This document shows positions 4,262 through 64,000 of a stretch of DNA of 64,000 bases, in pieces. Position 1 is the stretch's first letter. The number at the start of each line of letters is the position of its first letter. The DNA lies in assembly GCA_038741495.1 (NCBI GenBank), contig JAVYKX010000002.1:198541-262540 (forward strand), given 5' to 3'. Position numbers and translations under genes: made by a program. The notes beneath the pieces are model-generated. The model ran no database searches and was not told the origin of the DNA. It saw only the letters and a list, made by a program, of their open reading frames with translations. Origin of the DNA: Thermofilum sp. Lineage in GTDB: Archaea > Thermoproteota > Thermoprotei > Thermofilales > Thermofilaceae.

Positions 4262-4367
4262 GCCGGGGTCGCCTAGCCTGGTCTAGGGCGCCGGACTCAT
4301 AATCCGGTTATCCCGGGTTCGAAGCCCGGTGCTCGGCACGCGGGCGAGAGTCCCGGCCCCGGCACCA
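4262..4367 (+). tRNA. Elongator tRNA-Met(CAU) with a T-loop intron
   Basis: The acceptor GCCGGGG pairs with CCCCGGC (4357-4363), followed by A and an encoded CCA. The anticodon stem CCGGA/TCCGG carries the loop CTCATAA, so the anticodon is CAU. The CCGGA stem and G1-C72 pair suit an elongator rather than an initiator tRNA; Ile2(CAU) is a less likely alternative. A 27-nt intron (4324-4350) splits the T loop between positions 59 and 60. Its BHB is clear: helix TTCG/CGAG, 3-nt bulges AAG and AGT, and an inner CCCG/CGGG hairpin. Splicing restores T loop TTCGAAT on stem CCGGG/CCCGG. Confidence 0.93.
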
Positions 4368-5131: not shown

Positions 5132-5778
5132 GGAGTATGTCTACTACGACCGCGAAGCGGGCGGTTTCGCAAGGCATCAAGTACATGATGCTCCATGAGT
5201 TTTTAGAGAGAAAGCTAGTTCGCGCTAACTACGTTTACGCTCAGTTCTTCAAAACTCCTATCGGCACTAAAGTCATCATATACGCGGGGATGCCGGGTAT
5301 CATAATCGGCAGACGTGGGGCTAACATCAAAGCGCTCGCAGAGATCTTAGAGAAGGAATTCGGCCTTGAAAATCCACAGATAGATGTTATCGAGGTGCCG
5401 CAGCAGGATCTTAACGCCAAGATAATGGCTTACAGGATAGCTAGGGCTATTGCGAGAGGCGTGAAGTTCCGCCGAGCCGCGATGGCCGCGCTGAACAGGA
5501 TAATGGCTGCCGGAGCGAGAGGAGCCGAGATAGTTATTAGCGGCAAGCTCACGAGCCAGAGACACAGGACAGAGCGATTTAGCCGAGGCTACCTTCCTAA
5601 ATCCGGGGAGCCCGGCGAGGAGCTCGTCGACGAGGCCACGGTTCACGTCCTCCTAAAGCTTGGAATGTACGGAGTTAAAGTCAGGATAATGAAGCCAGCT
5701 AGGATGCCGGATCTCATCGAGGTGAAGCAAGCAGAGCTTTTAAGTGCTGAAGAGAAGCGGACTACCGCAGGTGGGTGA
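5128..5778 (+). CDS. rps3: 30S ribosomal protein uS3
   Basis: The protein carries the type-II KH domain with GIIIGRRGANI near residue 57 and the C-terminal uS3 domain (HRTERFSRGYLPKSGEPG). It sits at the mRNA entry of the small subunit. The GTG at 5128 overlaps the uL22 stop as GTGA, the arrangement also used by the next two genes. An ATG at 5137 (MSTTTAKR) is an equally possible start. About 217 residues, shorter than many archaeal uS3 proteins because the C-terminal tail is short. Confidence 0.94.
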   Translation: MRSMSTTTAKRAVSQGIKYMMLHEFLERKLVRANYVYAQFFKTPIGTKVIIYAGMPGIIIGRRGANIKALAEILEKEFGLENPQIDVIEVPQQDLNAKIMAYRIARAIARGVKFRRAAMAALNRIMAAGARGAEIVISGKLTSQRHRTERFSRGYLPKSGEPGEELVDEATVHVLLKLGMYGVKVRIMKPARMPDLIEVKQAELLSAEEKRTTAGG

Positions 5779-51398: not shown

Positions 51399-52465
51399 AA
51401 ATCCGAAAGCTGCCCTCTGGCAGTGCGGTTTACGGGAAGCTGCCCAGAGGGTGCGAGCTCTGCCAGCAAGGGTTAAAAACTGTTGTTTTTCTCACCGGGC
51501 TGTGCCCTCAACGCTGCTTTTACTGCCCGCTGAGCAGTGAGCGTAAAGACAAAGATGTGCTGTACGTTAACGAGGTGCTTTCATCACCTGAAAACCTCTT
51601 TGAAACAGTGCTGGCCGAGGTTTTGCGCTCCGCCTCTATGGGCGTAAGTATAACTGGCGGCGAACCCTTAGCTAAGCCTAACCTTGTCACCGGCCTCACC
51701 CGTTTCTTAAAGGATAAATTATCCAGGGATTTTCACGTGCACTTGTACACTTCTGGGATACCCCTCGGCGGTAAACTGGTAGGAGATCTCGTCGACTCCG
51801 GAGTCGACGAGATGAGAATTCACTCGCCGCTGCATCGTCTCGAAAAAGTGCTGGAGACTGTGAAGCAGGAGGGGGATGGTTTGTCTGTAGGTCTGGAGTA
51901 TCCGGCTTTACCCGGCAAGCTGGATCAGCTGCTACTGTTACTCGACATAGCTGAGAAAAGAGAGCTGGATTTCATTGTGTTGAATGAGCTCGAGTTTACC
52001 GAGACGAACGCGCAATCGCTGCTGCTCCGAGGTTACTCGATGCTTCCAGATTACCGAGGAGCCCAGGGTAGCAGAGAAACGGCCCTCGCGCTGCTAGAGG
52101 AAGCTGAGAAGCGAGCAGCGACCGTAAACGTACACTTCTGCCCAGTATCCGTGAAGGATAGTGTGCAGACCTCCTTGAGGGTGTACAGGCACGCGAACCT
52201 TAACGCTTTGCCTTACCACGTGGTGACCGATGAGGGAACCGTTCTGGAGGTCAACTACACGCTCTTGAGTAAAGTGGAGCCCGTGGCCGCCCTCTACCCT
52301 AGGGGTAAATTACCCATGTTTTTCGCCGACTCGGTAACGGAGGGTTTGCTTTCCGAGAAAAGCCTCGTTCTAGGGGGGCTCGCTCTGGAAGAGGTTCCTC
52401 TCCGCGGGAGTAATTCCCGAGCCCTACGTGGAGTTGCGTTAAGAAAGGGGGGTGCGGAGCCTTGA
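51395..52465 (+). CDS. Radical SAM protein, pyruvate-formate-lyase-activase-like
   Basis: The 356-residue protein has the cluster motif GLCPQRCFYCPLS (CxxxCxxC), VSITGGEPLAKP and HVHLYTSGIP of the radical SAM barrel. Two upstream cysteines (RGCELCQQG) may hold a second metal. The family is archaeal and uncharacterised; no glycyl radical partner is nearby. It is coupled to UPF0147. Confidence 0.82.
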   Translation: MKIRKLPSGSAVYGKLPRGCELCQQGLKTVVFLTGLCPQRCFYCPLSSERKDKDVLYVNEVLSSPENLFETVLAEVLRSASMGVSITGGEPLAKPNLVTGLTRFLKDKLSRDFHVHLYTSGIPLGGKLVGDLVDSGVDEMRIHSPLHRLEKVLETVKQEGDGLSVGLEYPALPGKLDQLLLLLDIAEKRELDFIVLNELEFTETNAQSLLLRGYSMLPDYRGAQGSRETALALLEEAEKRAATVNVHFCPVSVKDSVQTSLRVYRHANLNALPYHVVTDEGTVLEVNYTLLSKVEPVAALYPRGKLPMFFADSVTEGLLSEKSLVLGGLALEEVPLRGSNSRALRGVALRKGGAEP

Positions 52466-56677: not shown

Positions 56678-58228
56678 GTGGAGAGGTTCCGTGGGCTATC
56701 ACCAGCAGAATTCTTTCACAGGAACAGGGAGGTAGCGGGGTTCGCCAACCCAGCTAGAGCTCTCTACCAGACTATAAGGGAGCTTGTAGAAAACTCTCTC
56801 GACGCGACTGAGAATCACGGTATACTCCCCGTGATATACGTCGAAGTGCAGCAGGACCCCGAGAATGAGAACAGAGTCACGGTGATCGTCGCGGATAATG
56901 GTATAGGTATTCCGCTCCACGAGGTGCCGAATGTTTTCGGGAGAGTGTTCTACGGCTCCAAGTACGTAATCCGCCAGAGCAGAGGCGTTTTCGGCCTCGG
57001 CGTCAAGATGGCTGTTCTCTATGCTCAAATGACGACGGGTAAGCCTATATACGTGCGCACAGCACCGCTGAAATCCCCGGTCGAGGGAGAGTACTACCTT
57101 CAGATCGATATCAGCAGGAATATCCCGCATGTACTCAGAGCGCGGTTCAGGAGGAAAGATCGCGACTGGCACGGAACAGTCGTCAAGCTTACGCTAGAAG
57201 GCTCGTGGTTGCTCGCCAAGAAAAGGATTCTCGAGTATATTAAGAGGACGGCTCTGATAACCCCTTACGCGAGCATCCGCCTCAAAACCCCAGAGGAAGA
57301 CATCAAGTTCAAAAGAGTTACGAGGAAGCTTCCCGAGCCCCCCTCCACAGGGCTCTACCATCCGCGGGGAGTTGACATCGAGGTTCTGAAGGAAATGCTG
57401 AGGTCGCTGAACTCTAACGATATTACTCTCCACGAGTTCCTGGTGAAGAACTTTGAGGGCGTAGGGGAGAAGATTGCCTTAGACTTCCTCAGCTGGGCGG
57501 GCTTTGATCCCGGTAAGAAAGTAAAGGATCTGAAGAGCGAGGATTTAGAGCAGCTCGCCACCAAGATGAAGGCCTACGAAGGATGGAGGCGTCCTCGGCC
57601 CTACACGCTCTCACCCCTGGGCTCGCAGCTGCTTGAGGAAGGGGTGAAGAGAATCCTGTCCCCAGAGTTCGTGGCCGCTGTCTCGAGGCCCCCCTCATCC
57701 TATGGCGGTCATCCCTTCATAGTGGAAGCAGCGATCGCTTACGGCGGTGAGATACCCCCGGGGGATTCTCCGCTACTTCTGCGGTTTGCGAACAGGATGC
57801 CTTTGCTCTACGATGAGGGAGTCGACGTTTCGAGGAAAATCGTCGATTCTATCGACTGGTCTATCTACAAGGTGAAGTTCCCCGCGCCTCTAGCGGTCGT
57901 GATCCACATATGCTCTACTAAGATCCCCTTCAAGGGGGTAGGCAAGGAGGCTATTGCCGACGTTCCAGAAATCGAGAGGGAGCTCGAGATAGCCGTGAGG
58001 GAAATTTCGCGGGAGCTCAGGCTATACCTTTCAAGGCTCGAGAGGCTTCAGGAGGCAAGAAGGAAGGAGGTTATTTTCCGGAAGTACATGAAGGAGGTCG
58101 CAGGCGCGCTAAGTTATATAACGTCTATTAGGGAGGAGGAGCTGCTACTCAAACTCGAGGAGCTAGTTAGAGGAGAGCTCGGCAAGGTGAGTTTCGTTGA
58201 AGAGGGGAATGGTTCAGGCTCCGAGTGA
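56678..58228 (+). CDS. top6B: DNA topoisomerase VI subunit B
   Basis: The 516-residue GHKL ATPase has the N box RELVENSLDAT near residue 36, DNGIGIP, the G-rich lid GVFGLGVKMAVLYAQM, a helix-two-turn-helix domain and a transducer domain with the C-terminal helices. With subunit A it relaxes and decatenates DNA by a double-strand passage. GTG start. It overlaps top6A by 32 bases, so translation is coupled. Confidence 0.95.
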   Translation: MERFRGLSPAEFFHRNREVAGFANPARALYQTIRELVENSLDATENHGILPVIYVEVQQDPENENRVTVIVADNGIGIPLHEVPNVFGRVFYGSKYVIRQSRGVFGLGVKMAVLYAQMTTGKPIYVRTAPLKSPVEGEYYLQIDISRNIPHVLRARFRRKDRDWHGTVVKLTLEGSWLLAKKRILEYIKRTALITPYASIRLKTPEEDIKFKRVTRKLPEPPSTGLYHPRGVDIEVLKEMLRSLNSNDITLHEFLVKNFEGVGEKIALDFLSWAGFDPGKKVKDLKSEDLEQLATKMKAYEGWRRPRPYTLSPLGSQLLEEGVKRILSPEFVAAVSRPPSSYGGHPFIVEAAIAYGGEIPPGDSPLLLRFANRMPLLYDEGVDVSRKIVDSIDWSIYKVKFPAPLAVVIHICSTKIPFKGVGKEAIADVPEIERELEIAVREISRELRLYLSRLERLQEARRKEVIFRKYMKEVAGALSYITSIREEELLLKLEELVRGELGKVSFVEEGNGSGSE

Positions 58229-59327
58229 GGAGGAGGTCATCCGCCGCTTAGAGGAGCTCGGCTCCAGCATCGCTAAACAGATACTGAGCGGTAAAGAGCC
58301 CTACCTCGAGATTCCTGTCAGAACTCTAGCTAACACGATATGGGACGAGGCTAGGAAGATACTCGTACTAGGTCCCCGTACGGCTAAGAGGAGCTTTCTG
58401 GACGTAGGCGAGTCGAAGAAATTCATGCAGACAGTACTCATGCTTTCTCTGATTCTAAGGGCTCGCAGGGAGGGGGATTACCCGACCATAAGGGACCTTT
58501 ACTACACGGGTAAGCACACCATATACTACGTGGATGAGAACGGGAGAAGGCGGAGTGAGGAAACCTGGGACGACCAGAGGGAGTCTAATGCCGTCATCCA
58601 GGACCTTGAAGTGGCTCTGGGGCTGCTGAGGGAGCACATGGGCATCATGCACGACGCCAAGGGAAAGATCGTAGGCAACCTGGTTGTAAGGTCGAAGGGC
58701 TACGAGATTGACCTCTCCAGGATGGGTAGTGGAGCTTACGCGATTCCCCCCAACGTCGACAGGTTGGAGATTCTCAGCGTAGACGCGGAGTACGTCCTTG
58801 TGGTTGAGAAAGATGCTATCTTCGAGAGGCTGAACGAAGAGGAGTTCTGGAAGAGAAGCAGGTGCATACTTGTAACAGGTAAGGGTCAGCCGGACCGAAG
58901 TACGCGCAGGATGGTTAGGAGACTATGGGAGGAGTTCGACTTGCCGGTTTACGTGCTTACCGACGCTGACAGTTACGGGTTCTATATCTACAGCGTTTAC
59001 CGGAGCGGGTCTATATCGCTGAGCTACGAGAGTGAACGCCTAGCTACACCGGGAGCGCGGTTCCTCGGTGTGGCGGTCTCGGATATTGATCGCTACAAGA
59101 TACCGAAGAACTACATCATAAAGGCCACCGAGAGAGACCTCAAGAGGGCGAAAGAGCTTCTTAACTACCCGTGGTTTAAGGAGTCAAAGGGCTGGGTTCA
59201 GGAGCTGGAGCTTTTCCTCGAGAAGGGGGAGAAGGTGGAGATCGAGGCTCTCAGCGGCCACGGCTTCAAATTCCTGTCTCAGAAGTATATCCCTGAGAAG
59301 ATCGAGACGGGAAGCTACCTCTACTAG
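58197..59327 (+). CDS. top6A: DNA topoisomerase VI subunit A (Spo11-like)
   Basis: The 376-residue protein has the catalytic tyrosine in IRDLYYTGKHT near residue 102 and the Toprim acidic residues in VVEKDAIF and LTDADSYG. It cuts both strands, forming 5'-phosphotyrosyl links. The TTG at 58197 or the ATG at 58209 is the start. Its stop overlaps the convergent RAM-domain gene by 4 bases. Confidence 0.95.
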   Translation: MKRGMVQAPSEEEVIRRLEELGSSIAKQILSGKEPYLEIPVRTLANTIWDEARKILVLGPRTAKRSFLDVGESKKFMQTVLMLSLILRARREGDYPTIRDLYYTGKHTIYYVDENGRRRSEETWDDQRESNAVIQDLEVALGLLREHMGIMHDAKGKIVGNLVVRSKGYEIDLSRMGSGAYAIPPNVDRLEILSVDAEYVLVVEKDAIFERLNEEEFWKRSRCILVTGKGQPDRSTRRMVRRLWEEFDLPVYVLTDADSYGFYIYSVYRSGSISLSYESERLATPGARFLGVAVSDIDRYKIPKNYIIKATERDLKRAKELLNYPWFKESKGWVQELELFLEKGEKVEIEALSGHGFKFLSQKYIPEKIETGSYLY

Positions 59328-59619: not shown

Positions 59620-60216
59620 TTGAGTTATCCAACTTTTATCTATGAAATCAAAGGTTATTGGATGAGGGGGAGGGGGCTTTGTCGGAGGCTACTGGCTCAA
59701 CCTCCTCGCCTTCTCTTTAGAGAAGCTCAGCTAAAAGCGGCTATTGAAAAACTTGCGCGAAAGAATAGTGTAAGAATCGAGGGACCTCCTGGCGTGGGAA
59801 AAACTACGCTAGCTAGAATGGCTGCGGCTAGCCTTGGAAGGGTCACCTATGTCGCGGGCTTTGCTTGTAGAACCTACAACTGCTTGAGAGCTAGGATCGA
59901 CTTCAGCGCGCTGAACATCATAGATGATTACGGCTTAATTCTACGCGATAACAGTGTTGTAAAACTCGTAGAGAGCATTCCCTGGAAGGTGGTCGTCACT
60001 CACCCTGGGTTGTACGCGAGAGAGCTTGATTCTCTGCCTTCCGTGCACATGCCGCCTTACACTTTTCAAGAAATCAGGCAGATCCTGCTCGAGAGGGTTC
60101 AAAGGTTATCACTTACTGTCGACGCGGGCGTTATTGATGAGTGCGCGCGGGAAGCTGCGGAGCACAGCGGAAGCATCAGGCTGGCACTGCTGCTACTGTA
60201 CGAGAGAGTTACCTAG
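59620..60216 (+). CDS. Small AAA-like P-loop ATPase
   Basis: The 198-residue protein has Walker A EGPPGVGKTTLAR, Walker B NIIDDYGLI and a C-terminal helical lid (TFQEIRQILLERVQRLSL, HSGSIRLALLLLYE) reminiscent of Orc1/RFC-type AAA+ modules but lacking a winged helix. The TTG at 59620 fits the TATA spacing; an ATG at 59662 is the alternative. Its stop overlaps the convergent winged-helix gene by 4 bases. The partner is unknown. Confidence 0.75.
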   Translation: MSYPTFIYEIKGYWMRGRGLCRRLLAQPPRLLFREAQLKAAIEKLARKNSVRIEGPPGVGKTTLARMAAASLGRVTYVAGFACRTYNCLRARIDFSALNIIDDYGLILRDNSVVKLVESIPWKVVVTHPGLYARELDSLPSVHMPPYTFQEIRQILLERVQRLSLTVDAGVIDECAREAAEHSGSIRLALLLLYERVT

Positions 60217-60548
60217 CTGAAACCTAGCGTTTTCCCCAGCTCTAAACGCTGGGATAGCTCCTCGGCTACTGCTGATCCAAGCTCCGTCAGCTGCCATACC
60301 TTGTGTCGGGAAACGATAACATACTTCACGAGCCCGAGCTCCTCTAAGTAGTGAAGCACGCTTCTCGTGTAGCTAGCGTTGGCCAGAGACCCCTTACCTA
60401 ATACTCTCCTAATATCCTGGGTTAGCGCGCCCTGCACGTTCCTTAGGTAGAGTAGAACTGCTACGGCGTTAAACTTCTCGTTAAGTAGGAGCTCCTGTAC
60501 CACCTCCTCTGCGCGTTTTCGCTCCACGTTTCGCTTTGCTTCTTGCAA
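60213..60548 (-). CDS. Winged-helix transcription regulator-like protein
   Basis: The predicted product of about 111 residues has a winged-helix pattern: AVAVLLYLRNVQGALTQDIR, VLGKGSLANASYTRSVLHYL, LGLVKYVIVSRHKVWQLTEL. The start is uncertain; TTG 60548 (MQEAKRN) is chosen because the longer open frame, to 60731, runs through the ParB start. It is transcribed divergently from ParB across about 80 bases and could regulate it. Confidence 0.65.
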   Translation of the reverse strand: MQEAKRNVERKRAEEVVQELLLNEKFNAVAVLLYLRNVQGALTQDIRRVLGKGSLANASYTRSVLHYLEELGLVKYVIVSRHKVWQLTELGSAVAEELSQRLELGKTLGFS

Positions 60549-60627
60549 ACTAAAAATCTTAAGTTGGAGAAGCCTCCTTCCGAAGAAACTTATTTCAGCT
60601 TCTACCAGTTTGCCTCGGTGGAGCGGG

Positions 60628-61515
60628 ATGGAGCAGCTTACTCTCCTACCTGTGGAGCAGCTCCAGCCGAGCAGTGTGAACGTTCGCCTCCACGTGAGCG
60701 AGGAGGCCGTGAGGAAGCTGGCTGAGGACATTGCCGCGAGGGGTCTCCTGCACCCGCTGATCGTGCGGCCGGAGGGCGGCGCCTACGGCGTTGTCTGCGG
60801 TAGGATGCGCCTAGAAGCTATAAAGCTCCTGCAGCGCGAGAGGCCCGAGGTTTTCAGCCGCCTCTTCGGGAGGGGTGTTCCCTGCCAGGTTCGCGAGCTC
60901 GACGACCGGGAAGCGCTCGAGCTCTCGCTAGCGGAGAACATCAGGCAGAACACTCTCACCCCAGAGGAGGTGGGCAGGGGGCTCGCGCGGCTCTACGAGC
61001 TCGGCCTACCGGAAGAGGAGATCGCGCGCCGAGTGCTTGTCGAAGTGGATACCATCCGCAGGGCTGTACGGCTTTACTCCAGACTCTCGGCGGTTATGAG
61101 CCTAACCGCCGAGTCGAAGCCCGGCAGGCCCCCCCTGCGCGAGCAGAGACGCCGTATTAGCAGGTCGGGGCTCAGCTCTGTGGCGAGGGCTGTGGAGCAG
61201 CTTCAAACGCAGGGGGAGGGTGGCATCAAGCCCGATGAGGTGGTGAGAAAAGTGGCTGAGTGGGGCAAGGGGAAGCTTAGCACCGGGGAGCTTCGCCTTC
61301 TCGCCGAGAGGTTGAAGCGCGACGCTTCTCTGCTGCGCGACGAAGAGAGGCTCAAAAATTTAATTGAAGAAATTTCTAGAGAGGGCTACGTGGAGAGGGT
61401 AGTTCTGCTCAAGCGGTCCCTTATTGGAAAGTTGGAGGAGCTAGCAAAGCGGGAAGGATTAAGTTTCGACGAGGAGCTTAACAGAGTTGTCGAGAAAGCA
61501 CTCGCTGCCCTTTAA
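60628..61515 (+). CDS. parB: ParB/Spo0J-domain protein
   Basis: The 295-residue protein has the ParB N-terminal nuclease-like/CTPase fold: VEQLQPSSVNVRLHVSEEAV, LAEDIAARGLLHPLIVRP, CGRMRLEAIKLL and LAENIRQNTLTPEEVGRGL. A helix-turn-helix follows (LPEEEIARRVLVEVDTIRRAV), then a helical tail. It would bind a centromere-like DNA site and act with ParA. ATG at 60628 is chosen over a TTG at 60610. Its last codons lie inside a perfect inverted repeat. Confidence 0.85.
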   Translation: MEQLTLLPVEQLQPSSVNVRLHVSEEAVRKLAEDIAARGLLHPLIVRPEGGAYGVVCGRMRLEAIKLLQRERPEVFSRLFGRGVPCQVRELDDREALELSLAENIRQNTLTPEEVGRGLARLYELGLPEEEIARRVLVEVDTIRRAVRLYSRLSAVMSLTAESKPGRPPLREQRRRISRSGLSSVARAVEQLQTQGEGGIKPDEVVRKVAEWGKGKLSTGELRLLAERLKRDASLLRDEERLKNLIEEISREGYVERVVLLKRSLIGKLEELAKREGLSFDEELNRVVEKALAAL

Positions 61516-61545
61516 AGGGTAACATGTCCTTTAAAGGGCAGCGAG
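61501..61545. repeat. Perfect 18-bp inverted repeat, candidate parS-like site
   Basis: CTCGCTGCCCTTTAAAGG (61501-61518) is exactly complementary to 61528-61545 across a 9-base spacer. Each arm contains its own palindrome CCTTTAAAGG. The left arm overlaps the last codons and stop of parB. It could be a ParB-binding centromere, an operator before parA, or an RNA hairpin at the parB 3' end. No T run follows immediately. Confidence 0.8.
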
Positions 61546-61614: not shown

Positions 61615-62298
61615 GTGATCGCGACGACTTTCAGCGGGTCTAAGGGGGGTACTGGGAAGACTACGCTCGCCGTCTGCCTGAGCGTGGTAGTGGGGGGTGT
61701 AGCGCCGACGTTACTCGTCGATGCGAGCTCTGAGGGGGGCGCGACGGCTTACCTGGTAGGGGACGTTCCTCCCCCGTACCTAAGGGATGATCCTTCACGT
61801 AGCCTGAGGCGGGTTGAAAGCGGTTCGCTGAGGTTGACGATTGCGGTGAATCGGGGGCCTCTTGCCGATCTGCAGGTGGTTGCGGATCACGTGCGAGGCT
61901 GGTCTAGAGCCTACAGCGTTGTAGTTGTAGATCTGCCCGCCCTCACAGATGTAGATGCTGTGGAGAGGTACATGCCGCTGCTGAAGCTCGCTGACGCTGT
62001 CCTAGTAGTCACCGAACCTAGTCCTGCAGCGATGGAAGCGGCCCTCTACAAGTTCAGCGGGAAGAGTGTAGTTGTCGTTCTAAACCAGCCAAGGCCTTAC
62101 CCGCTGGCTGTGGTAAATCAGTACATCTCTATGATGAGAGTTTTCTGCCGTAACGCGGGCTGCGAGTACGTTGTCGTTCCCTACGAGCCCGCGATGAGCA
62201 GGCTGAGCCCCTCCACGCTGCGCGTAATTAACTACACGAGCGAGGAATTCGATGCAGCAATCATGCGGCTTGCCAGGCTTCTGCTGCGTCAGGTATAA
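61615..62298 (+). CDS. parA: ParA/MinD-family ATPase
   Basis: The 227-residue protein has the deviant Walker A KGGTGKTT at residues 10-17 (with the signature lysine), LLVDASSEGG for the A' motif, VVVVDLPAL for Walker B, and VVLNQPRP. It is short relative to chromosomal ParA and lacks an N-terminal DNA-binding domain. GTG start. It follows parB by 99 bases that include the inverted repeat. Confidence 0.9.
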   Translation: MIATTFSGSKGGTGKTTLAVCLSVVVGGVAPTLLVDASSEGGATAYLVGDVPPPYLRDDPSRSLRRVESGSLRLTIAVNRGPLADLQVVADHVRGWSRAYSVVVVDLPALTDVDAVERYMPLLKLADAVLVVTEPSPAAMEAALYKFSGKSVVVVLNQPRPYPLAVVNQYISMMRVFCRNAGCEYVVVPYEPAMSRLSPSTLRVINYTSEEFDAAIMRLARLLLRQV

Positions 62299-62301
62299 AT
62301 A
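62292..62301 (+). promoter_or_regulatory. TATA box of the coiled-coil gene
   Basis: GGTATAAATA overlaps the parA stop and lies about 32 bases before the ATG at 62330. Confidence 0.5.
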
Positions 62302-62329
62302 CAATAGAAACGAATGATAGGTGGTGGTC

Positions 62330-62806
62330 ATGCTTAGAAGAGGCAGAGATGAAGGAGGGGGGAAGCCTAAGGATTTCTTTGAAGAGCACGAAAAGCTGAG
62401 AGCGGAGAAGTCCCGAGCGACGGGCGGTATCTCAGCTCATGATCCGCAACCCTCGCTTCAGAGCAGCGCTCTTCCTTCAGCTTCCCCTGCTCTTCCGTAT
62501 GCTTCATCTCCCTTGAGAACAGCCGATCTTCCACTGGATAGACACGTCGATGCTGGTGAACTGGCTTCTGCTAACACAGGCGGTAGCTCTGCAAAGAGTG
62601 GTGATCCAAGATACTCCGGCTTGGATGCGCTGATCTCCAGTTTGAGGAGTCTAGGCTACGAGGTAAAGCCTCTAGAAGCATTACGCGAGTATGCAGCTCA
62701 GCTAGATGGCGAGGCAGCTAAGCTGTCGCGGGAGATTGAAGAGAAGCGTAAAAGGCTTGAACTTTTACAACAGGCAAGAGAACTTCTACGAAGATTCGGC
62801 ATCTAG
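62330..62806 (+). CDS. Disordered plus coiled-coil protein
   Basis: I recognise no family. The 158-residue protein has a charged N terminus (RRGRDEGGGKPKDFFEEHEK), a low-complexity Ser/Ala/Pro middle (about residues 35-100) and a C-terminal helical/coiled-coil part (SGLDALISSLRSLGYEVKP, AAKLSREIEEKRKRLELL). ATG at 62330 with a TATA box at leaderless distance. It lies between ParA and the secretion-ATPase-like gene and may be an adaptor. Confidence 0.7.
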   Translation: MLRRGRDEGGGKPKDFFEEHEKLRAEKSRATGGISAHDPQPSLQSSALPSASPALPYASSPLRTADLPLDRHVDAGELASANTGGSSAKSGDPRYSGLDALISSLRSLGYEVKPLEALREYAAQLDGEAAKLSREIEEKRKRLELLQQARELLRRFGI

Positions 62807-62819
62807 GGAAGGCAGCGGG

Positions 62820-64000
62820 ATGCCGCTCGCAGAAGCTTCCCGGAACTTCTCGAGGGGCAAGCGCTCCGCTACTCCTGGATCCGGGAAGCAGCAGGCCCCG
62901 GAAAAGCAAGTTTTCGCTGAATCGATGAGGCTCAGAACCGGGGAGCTGGGACAGGGCGAAGTCGCTCGGAAGAAATCACCGCTCCTCAAGCTTAAGCTGC
63001 TCGGATCTAACTTCCTTCGAATCCCCCATTTCTCCGAAACTGCTCGCGCATCCTCCCAGCCTTGCGAACCCGCCTACCCACTCTGCAGGGAGGAGAAGAA
63101 AATCATAGTATACGCGTGCCGTGACCGGGGCTCGCTAGAGATGATCGAGGCTCTCCGGAGAATACTCGCGAGCTTACCGAGGGAGGAGAGGCCGAAGGTG
63201 AAGCTGAGAGTGCTCAAGCTGCGGGAGCCTTCTCAGCTGCAGACCTACATCGAGCAGCTCGGCGAGCTCTTCGGAGGTGTATACTTGAGAGATTTGAGGA
63301 AGCACGGTATCCGCGCACTCCCAGCAATAGTGGTGGACGGCGAGAAAGTCCTAGAGGGTAGGTACCCCTCTGAGGACGAGCTTAGAGCGCTGCTAGCACC
63401 CGCTCCGCGGCAAGCGCCAGAACTCCCGCCAGAGCAGCGTGCTGAGCAAGCTCCCAGCGGTGGAGAAGCCGCGCCCCAGCACGGCCGGTACTTCCTCCCG
63501 CCACTCGCCACTCCAGAGGGGGCGACGCCGGCTCAGGGGCTTTGCTCCCCATCTTCACCGATGCTTCACCAACAGAGGTTGCCGAAAATTCGCGTGAGGG
63601 ATAAGAATAGGCTCGAGGGCGCTGAGGTGCCGCTGCCTCCCCTCGCGCACGGGAGGGTCGTTAGGACTCCCAGCGGAACCATATTCATCGGTGACGGTGC
63701 CGTGCGAGTGTACGCTGAGCGGGAGGGCGAGTGGGGGCCGCTGCAGCCCCTAGCGGAGTACCCCGGGACGCAGGAGGTCTTTATCCGCGAGCTAGATGGG
63801 GAGGTGTACATCACAGCCGGCATCGAGGGGAGGCGCTACGTGGTTGAGCTGCCCAGGCAGCTCCTCGTCGAAAGGCTGGCCCAGAGAATCGCGATCGAGG
63901 CAGGGATCCCGCTCAGCGAGCGGAACCCGCAGGACAGCGGCGAGTTCAAGGGGTGGCGTGTGAACCTCGCGCTGCCGCAGCTAGCTGGCGGCTGGCAGCT
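62820..64000 (+). CDS. Thioredoxin-like domain fused to VirB11/GspE-type secretion ATPase (partial)
   Basis: The frame is open from ATG 62820 to the window end (393+ residues). Residues about 95-195 look like a thioredoxin fold (KIIVYACRDRGSLEMIEALR, ALPAIVVDGEKVLEGRYP with the cis-Pro loop) but have no CxxC pair. A Pro/Ala/Gln linker follows. From about 285 the sequence matches the N-terminal domain of VirB11/TadA-like ATPases: EVFIRELDGEVYIT, LLVERLAQRIAIEAG, then WRVNLALPQLAGGW just before the cut. The ATPase core should lie beyond the edge. Partner systems of this family build pili, secrete or move DNA. Confidence 0.75.
   Translation, partial: MPLAEASRNFSRGKRSATPGSGKQQAPEKQVFAESMRLRTGELGQGEVARKKSPLLKLKLLGSNFLRIPHFSETARASSQPCEPAYPLCREEKKIIVYACRDRGSLEMIEALRRILASLPREERPKVKLRVLKLREPSQLQTYIEQLGELFGGVYLRDLRKHGIRALPAIVVDGEKVLEGRYPSEDELRALLAPAPRQAPELPPEQRAEQAPSGGEAAPQHGRYFLPPLATPEGATPAQGLCSPSSPMLHQQRLPKIRVRDKNRLEGAEVPLPPLAHGRVVRTPSGTIFIGDGAVRVYAEREGEWGPLQPLAEYPGTQEVFIRELDGEVYITAGIEGRRYVVELPRQLLVERLAQRIAIEAGIPLSERNPQDSGEFKGWRVNLALPQLAGGWQ

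Follow-up and report, generated by a model that had tools for sequence, protein, structure and literature searches.

A perfect inverted repeat over the parB stop codon of a Thermofilum genome: a candidate double operator or parS-like site of a ParB/winged-helix module

The window, as we call the 64,000 nucleotides of Thermofilum sp. analyzed here, carries a perfect inverted repeat at positions 61501–61545, between a parB gene and a parA-like gene. Judging from the sequence, we lean, with slightly better than even confidence, toward reading it as a protein-bound double operator or parS-like site of a ParB/winged-helix module. That a protein binds the repeat, which protein it is and what its binding does are what we infer from the arrangement described below. 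Readings of the repeat as a terminator, a product of chance or an attachment site are weaker. The module is preceded by topoisomerase VI B and A genes (56678–59327), which are followed by a small ATPase gene, a winged-helix gene and parB. The window is archaeal.

The two arms, 61501–61518 and 61528–61545, are complementary at 18 of 18 positions and are separated by 9 nt, the full repeat reading CTCGCTGCCCTTTAAAGG-gtaacatgt-CCTTTAAAGGGCAGCGAG. Each arm includes a smaller dyad, CCTTTAAAGG (61509–61518 and 61528–61537), and the two are 19 bp apart from center to center. With their flanks, the half-repeats read TGCCCTTTAAAGGGTA (dyad 1, 61506–61521) and TGTCCTTTAAAGGGCA (dyad 2, 61525–61540), so the perfect inner palindrome extends to 12 bp in the first and 10 bp in the second. 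Neither the repeat nor its dyads are assigned a strand. The left arm spans the final codons and the stop of parB, which ends at 61515, and 69 bases lie between the end of the repeat at 61545 and the GTG start of parA at 61615. An earlier note on this DNA had described the perfect 18-bp repeat, a palindrome inside each arm and an overlap with the parB stop ahead of parA, and these coordinates bear it out on all three points.

That note had also called the repeat far beyond chance, and this holds. When 64 kb was simulated 40 times with a first-order Markov model, the longest repeat reached 12 bp once and was otherwise 9–11 bp. Within the window, it is the longest inverted repeat with a loop of up to 20, the runner-up being 14 bp at 51786–51813. 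The latter is a perfect 28-bp palindrome, ATCTCGTCGACTCC/GGAGTCGACGAGAT, inside an open reading frame that looks radical-SAM-like by eye. The pair of arms is single-copy in the 1,615,881-base genome even with up to 3 mismatches allowed, and near-matches to an arm at 2–3 mismatches in the same genome do not exceed the control level. The dyad CCTTTAAAGG occurs at four places in the genome; two are the dyads of the repeat, and the other two are single and lie inside open reading frames.

The parB gene is on the + strand at 60628–61515. Going by the alignment of ParB sequences, the listed TTG start at 60610 seems less likely than the ATG at 60628, from which the protein is 295 aa long. It has a ParB_N domain (PF02195, E 1.4e-12, 47.9 bits against a cutoff of 26.3), an HTH region and a helical C-terminus; the TIGR00180 parB_part model scores 51.9 bits, under its curated cutoff of 58.45. 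The predicted structure (mean pLDDT 84.1, pTM 0.60) matches KorB, ParB and Noc structures in a tie: KorB 8qa9 at Z 13.6 (rmsd 10.4, 197 aligned), ParB 6sdk at Z 13.2 (rmsd 1.6, 96 aligned), 7bnk at Z 13.2 and Noc at Z 12.9. By this model, the protein is of the KorB/Noc/ParB-type fold in its N-terminal domain and HTH region. The CTP-binding motifs of ParB and KorB clamps are GxRRxxA-like and ENxR-like, and the window protein has the similar GRMRLEA and ENIRQ. Among 12 aligned ParBs, a relaxed GxRRxxA-like motif is found in all 12 and EN[ILV]R in 10. The N-terminal ParA-binding motif [LFI]G[KR]G[LFI] is absent from 11 of the 12, including the window protein; the sole instance, FGKGI in the ParB of locus L030, is located internally.

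Among 398 genomes of the phylum, this ParB family is found at E <= 1e-20 in 13, and these all belong to the same archaeal order. Relatives by protein are of the same family and order, and the named ones are labelled Thermofilum, Thermofilaceae, Thermofilales or Thermoprotei. Scans of genome contigs and viral contigs with the single protein gave no matches, and scans with an alignment gave 33 loci in genome contigs and 12 in viral contigs. Ten of the 33 carry one of those same four labels and are largely the same records as the genome loci compared here. One locus from the alignment scans, L060, gave no match in the winged-helix profile search. Matches to plasmids amount to 590 records, all below 60% identity, and the 15 listed are all bacterial. 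Genome G006, labelled Thermofilum sp. NZ13, has four parB copies. A short open reading frame elsewhere (L046:7763–8023; G000:C2:152777) has a tail that matches the ParB C-terminus with 72% identity across 25 residues and adjoins TTACTGGT-type repeats; tblastn found no parB, helicase or platform gene adjoining it.

Divergent from parB, on the - strand at about 60216–60548 (the start codon is uncertain), is a gene for a small winged-helix DNA-binding protein, a candidate AspA/KorA-like partner. A profile seeded with seven sequences of the 15-locus set described below places such a gene next to parB in 14 of the 15 loci, either divergent or upstream in the same direction. The match in L040 is weak (E 1.6e-5), and the exception is L042, a short contig with no winged-helix gene beside parB. 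The predicted structure (pLDDT 94.6) is about as similar to MarR-type regulators as to AspA and TubR: AspA 4rs8 is matched at Z 13.2 (rmsd 2.7, 84 aligned), the best match is at 13.3 and MarR-type folds are tied. By profile, the match to 4rs8 has E 0.014. KorA is not among the matches listed for the model, which is no evidence against a KorA likeness. The earlier note did not mention this protein, and it is a credible alternative binder of the repeat. Tail to tail with its gene is the small ATPase gene (59620–60213), with nSTAND3, NTPase_1 and weaker Cdc6-lid matches; relatives of this ATPase adjoin parB in L029, L033 and L041.

The comparison with relatives covered 15 parB loci (213.5 kb), in which inverted repeats were collected with a loop of up to 30 and at most one mismatch. 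The counts do not include five relatives (L041, L043, L044, L045 and L046), in which parB is cut short, matches weakly and in part, or is represented by a match to the ParB tail alone. The highest repeat scores are 18 in the window, 17 in G016, 15 in G006-C6 and G009 and 14 in G006-C29, followed by 13 in L038, L036, L035, L034 and L033. All five repeats scoring at least 14 fall within -1000/+100 of parB, a region making up 14.1% of the sequence (binomial p 5.6e-5), as do 6 of the 10 scoring at least 13 (p 1.0e-3); these p-values are optimistic because the limits of the region were set once the repeats had been looked at, and because the G006 copies are not independent. Dyads also score higher at the 15 parB stops than at 157 other gene stops in these loci (p 5e-4) or at 600 random positions (p 2.5e-4), again in a region chosen with the loci in view. 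The parB-stop scores, taken from -30 to +60, are 18, 10, 9, 8, 8, 7, 6, 6, 6, 6, 6, 5, 5, 4 and 4, and one control stop that scores 15 is the G009 repeat itself, near the stop of another open reading frame. The strong stop repeats (window, G004 and G009) are in loci without the gene X275 directly after parB, and the four loci with X275, that of L028 being judged from sequence, have stop scores of 8, 4, 6 and 6. In L030 (1848–9024) and L031 (10424–17540), three genes come after parB: one of 275 aa without a known family, one for a probably secreted protein that matches GH5 cellulase and one for a DEAD-box helicase of roughly 1030 aa. Among the seven full-length loci outside G006, a repeat scoring at least 10 near parB and not wholly coding is present in four (window, G016, G009 and G004), and G014, G015 and G012 have no such repeat.

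The sequence of the repeat does not follow this pattern. No copy of it is present at the inspected parB loci of relatives, even where the HTH region of ParB is nearly identical. The earlier note had proposed as a check that relatives with parB should also have CTCGCTGCCCTTTAAAGG, and this is not borne out; only the position and the architecture recur. Depending on the genome, the strong repeats lie either upstream of the winged-helix gene (as in G016 and G009) or at the parB stop. In G009, upstream of the winged-helix gene, GGGGTAAGTTTACCCA, TGGGTCTTTAGACCCG and TGGGTCTAAAGACCCA follow one another every 20 bp. In G004, CCAAGATTGG, CCAATTTTGG and CCAATTGTGG do so over the parB stop, and the unit is confined to the parB stop in that genome, with one control hit. 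G016 has a 36-bp palindrome between divergent parA and winged-helix genes and TGGGTCCCGTGACCCA 11 bases past its parB stop; their sequences are different, suggesting two ligands. G006 instead repeats GATATC, mostly at 10-bp steps (L131:6330–6500, L037:10010–10160, L035 and L034). All 11 pair matches of GATATC in G006 fall in four clusters, three of them within 1.8 kb of a winged-helix–parB pair, against 0 for the control; one cluster is in a 14-kb stretch without parB, and around one of the G006 parB copies the stretch examined contains no cluster.

Under the preferred reading, two protein dimers would occupy one face of the helix, the dyads being 19 bp, or about two turns, apart. The binder would be the neighboring ParB, of the CTP-clamp type, alone or with the conserved winged-helix partner. 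Bound protein would control its own gene as well as the parA–pilus operon, whose start is 69 bases downstream. ParB may also nucleate here on the locus, in the manner of KorB at OB or of AspA at the 23-bp site that it binds, and the site could serve repression, nucleation of ParB or both.

We think it rather unlikely that the site belongs to the winged-helix protein alone, as an AspA-like nucleation site or that of a plain autoregulator, and that ParB does not read sequence. The constancy of the winged-helix gene beside parB and the place of AspA near the top of the fold matches would fit this, as would the strongest repeats of G016 and G009, which lie upstream of that gene. The winged-helix sequences also diverge more (39% mean column identity) than those of ParB (57%), as the sites do. 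But in the window and G004 the site lies at the opposite end of parB from the winged-helix gene, in the window about 950 bases away from the start of that gene, and MarR/HxlR proteins and TubR score like AspA. A further point comes from TGGGTCNNNNGACCCA, which G016 and G009 share though the HTH regions of their winged-helix proteins differ. It occurs once in each of these genomes, both times at the parB locus. Their ParBs have nearly identical HTH regions, and the sharing of these and of TGGGTCNNNNGACCCA therefore favors ParB as the ligand of that motif. This sharing was noticed first and tested after. Three further genomes with similar ParBs (G012, G014 and G015) lack the motif. It is found in 3 of 17 family genomes, against control hits in 2 of 17, and the third match, in G010, is inside a coding gene. 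A scored scan of the 15 loci gave no other match at 11 or 12 of 12 outside L030 and L032.

An RNA stem-loop at the 3′ end of the parB mRNA, serving as a terminator, a stabilizer or a block to read-through into parA, seems to us improbable. As RNA, the repeat would be very stable (-36.9 kcal/mol, z -6.9), and it is located exactly over the parB stop codon. Yet a hairpin needs neither the inner dyads nor the tandem spacing of 19–20 or 10 bp seen in relatives, no T-run directly follows the repeat and most of the other gene stops of these loci have no repeat of this sort. The strongest repeats of G016 and G009 are upstream of genes, and Rfam has no match at the repeat, with one sub-threshold match elsewhere in the 2-kb stretch. 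We give slightly less credence again to a functionless mutational by-product, a quasi-palindrome perfected by template switching. The perfect arms and a sequence private to one genome would suit it, but strong dyads of unrelated sequence recur at the same module in several genomes. An attachment or transposition scar, or a rearrangement junction that put the repeat and then parA in the X275 position after parB, agrees with the variable gene order 3′ of parB among relatives but is very improbable, as the repeat is single-copy and well inside a 550-kb contig and the 20-kb stretch L027 has no tRNA (the only one in the window is at 4262).

The genes downstream of the repeat, all on the + strand, are those for a parA-like ATPase with the motif GSKGGTGKTT (61615–62298), for a small protein of unknown family that is found with parA in relatives too (62330–62806) and for the 5′ part of a secretion/pilus ATPase frame (62706–63998), whose true start is probably further downstream. 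The last has a T2SSE domain, and its best NCBIfam match, a TadA family, is below cutoff. After parA come the small gene, which is conserved, the T2SSE ATPase, pilin-like genes and a 420-aa membrane-type (platform-like) protein that relatives also have. The pilin-like N-termini were recognized by eye, and the platform-like protein has no Pfam match above cutoff. By tblastn, parA is present in 7 of 19 other loci and the pilus ATPase and platform-like genes extend to the more distant L039 and L040; the G006 parB loci have no match to parA, the ATPase or the platform protein. In the single-contig genome G004, parB and parA are about 2 kb apart. The Tad-like cluster beside parB is at 61615–64000 in the window and at 5156–11041 in L027, with matching genes in L030, L031, L032, L033, L039 and L040. 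This "parA" may as likely be a pilus-type ATPase as a partition motor. It stands first in a pilus-type gene set, so that a role in partition is less secure than one in regulation or in connection with pili. The suggestion of the earlier note, a partition site or an autoregulatory operator, is therefore retained in part: the clustering of dyads near parB in relatives supports a ParB-linked protein site, and the partition role is less secure.

A broader reading, possible in our view but doubtful, is that Thermofilales have a true chromosomal archaeal ParB-type clamp, comprising ParB, the winged-helix protein, ParA and a fast-evolving site of iterated dyads, seated on a Tad-like pilus locus and acting as a centromere or as a switch of the KorB/KorA kind. 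A survey from 2025 finds chromosomal ParABS generally absent in archaea and suspects contamination behind chromosomal ParAB detections (PMC12704722). The position of this locus beside topoisomerase VI genes and its presence in the single-contig G004 speak against contamination as the full answer. The module is not described in the titles and abstracts listed for Thermofilales or Thermofilum with ParB or for Tad pili with ParB. Operators and parS sites near parB are already known; the kind of site is ordinary, its setting unusual. A short DNA site with two candidate binders offers a test of ParB-type clamps in archaea outside Sulfolobales, and the locus lets one ask if pilus genes can come under the control of a ParB module.

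By analogy, the nearest mechanism is that of KorA and KorB. KorB of RK2 is described as a long-range repressor of replication and transfer genes with a 16-bp operator, OB (PMC11790492). The pair likewise combines a ParB-fold clamp, here a tied best structural match, with a small DNA-binding partner, but the present system is archaeal, its partner is a winged helix encoded beside parB and its sites vary between genomes, with no evident likeness to the OB consensus. The nearest archaeal system is AspA–ParB–ParA of the Sulfolobus plasmid pNOB8, which also has a small winged-helix gene beside parB, a parA and a palindromic site. This site is described as a 23-bp palindrome, with several dimers on the DNA (PMC5120986). 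It lies upstream of aspA, whereas the window palindrome is at the 3′ end of parB; the pNOB8 ParB is 470 aa with a CenpA-like C-terminus, as opposed to 295 aa with a ParB/KorB-like HTH region, and the window module is chromosomal and beside pilus-type genes. Also in archaea, SegAB of Sulfolobales is reported to combine a ParA homologue with palindromic sites near its genes, and SegB, in the same account, to have no sequence identity to bacterial ParB (PMC5120986); the palindromes and the ParA homologue are shared with the window, and the unlikeness of SegB to bacterial ParB is not. TadZ/CpaE of Tad and archaeal type IV pili is likewise an ATPase of the ParA/MinD superfamily that has a TadA-like ATPase, pilin-like genes and a platform-like protein for neighbors, and TadZ is described as homologous to archaeal pilus components (PMC6668835). 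The likeness comes from the gene set, and the window ATPase differs in having a ParB/winged-helix module attached. Bacterial ParABS, finally, shares with the window ParB_N, the CTP-motif-like GRMR and ENIRQ, an HTH, a nearby ParA-type ATPase and a palindrome. The bacterial parS consensus is TGTTNCACGTGAAACA, which the window repeat does not resemble; the window ParB is without the N-terminal LG[KR]GL-type motif, and its ParA sits among pilus-type genes.
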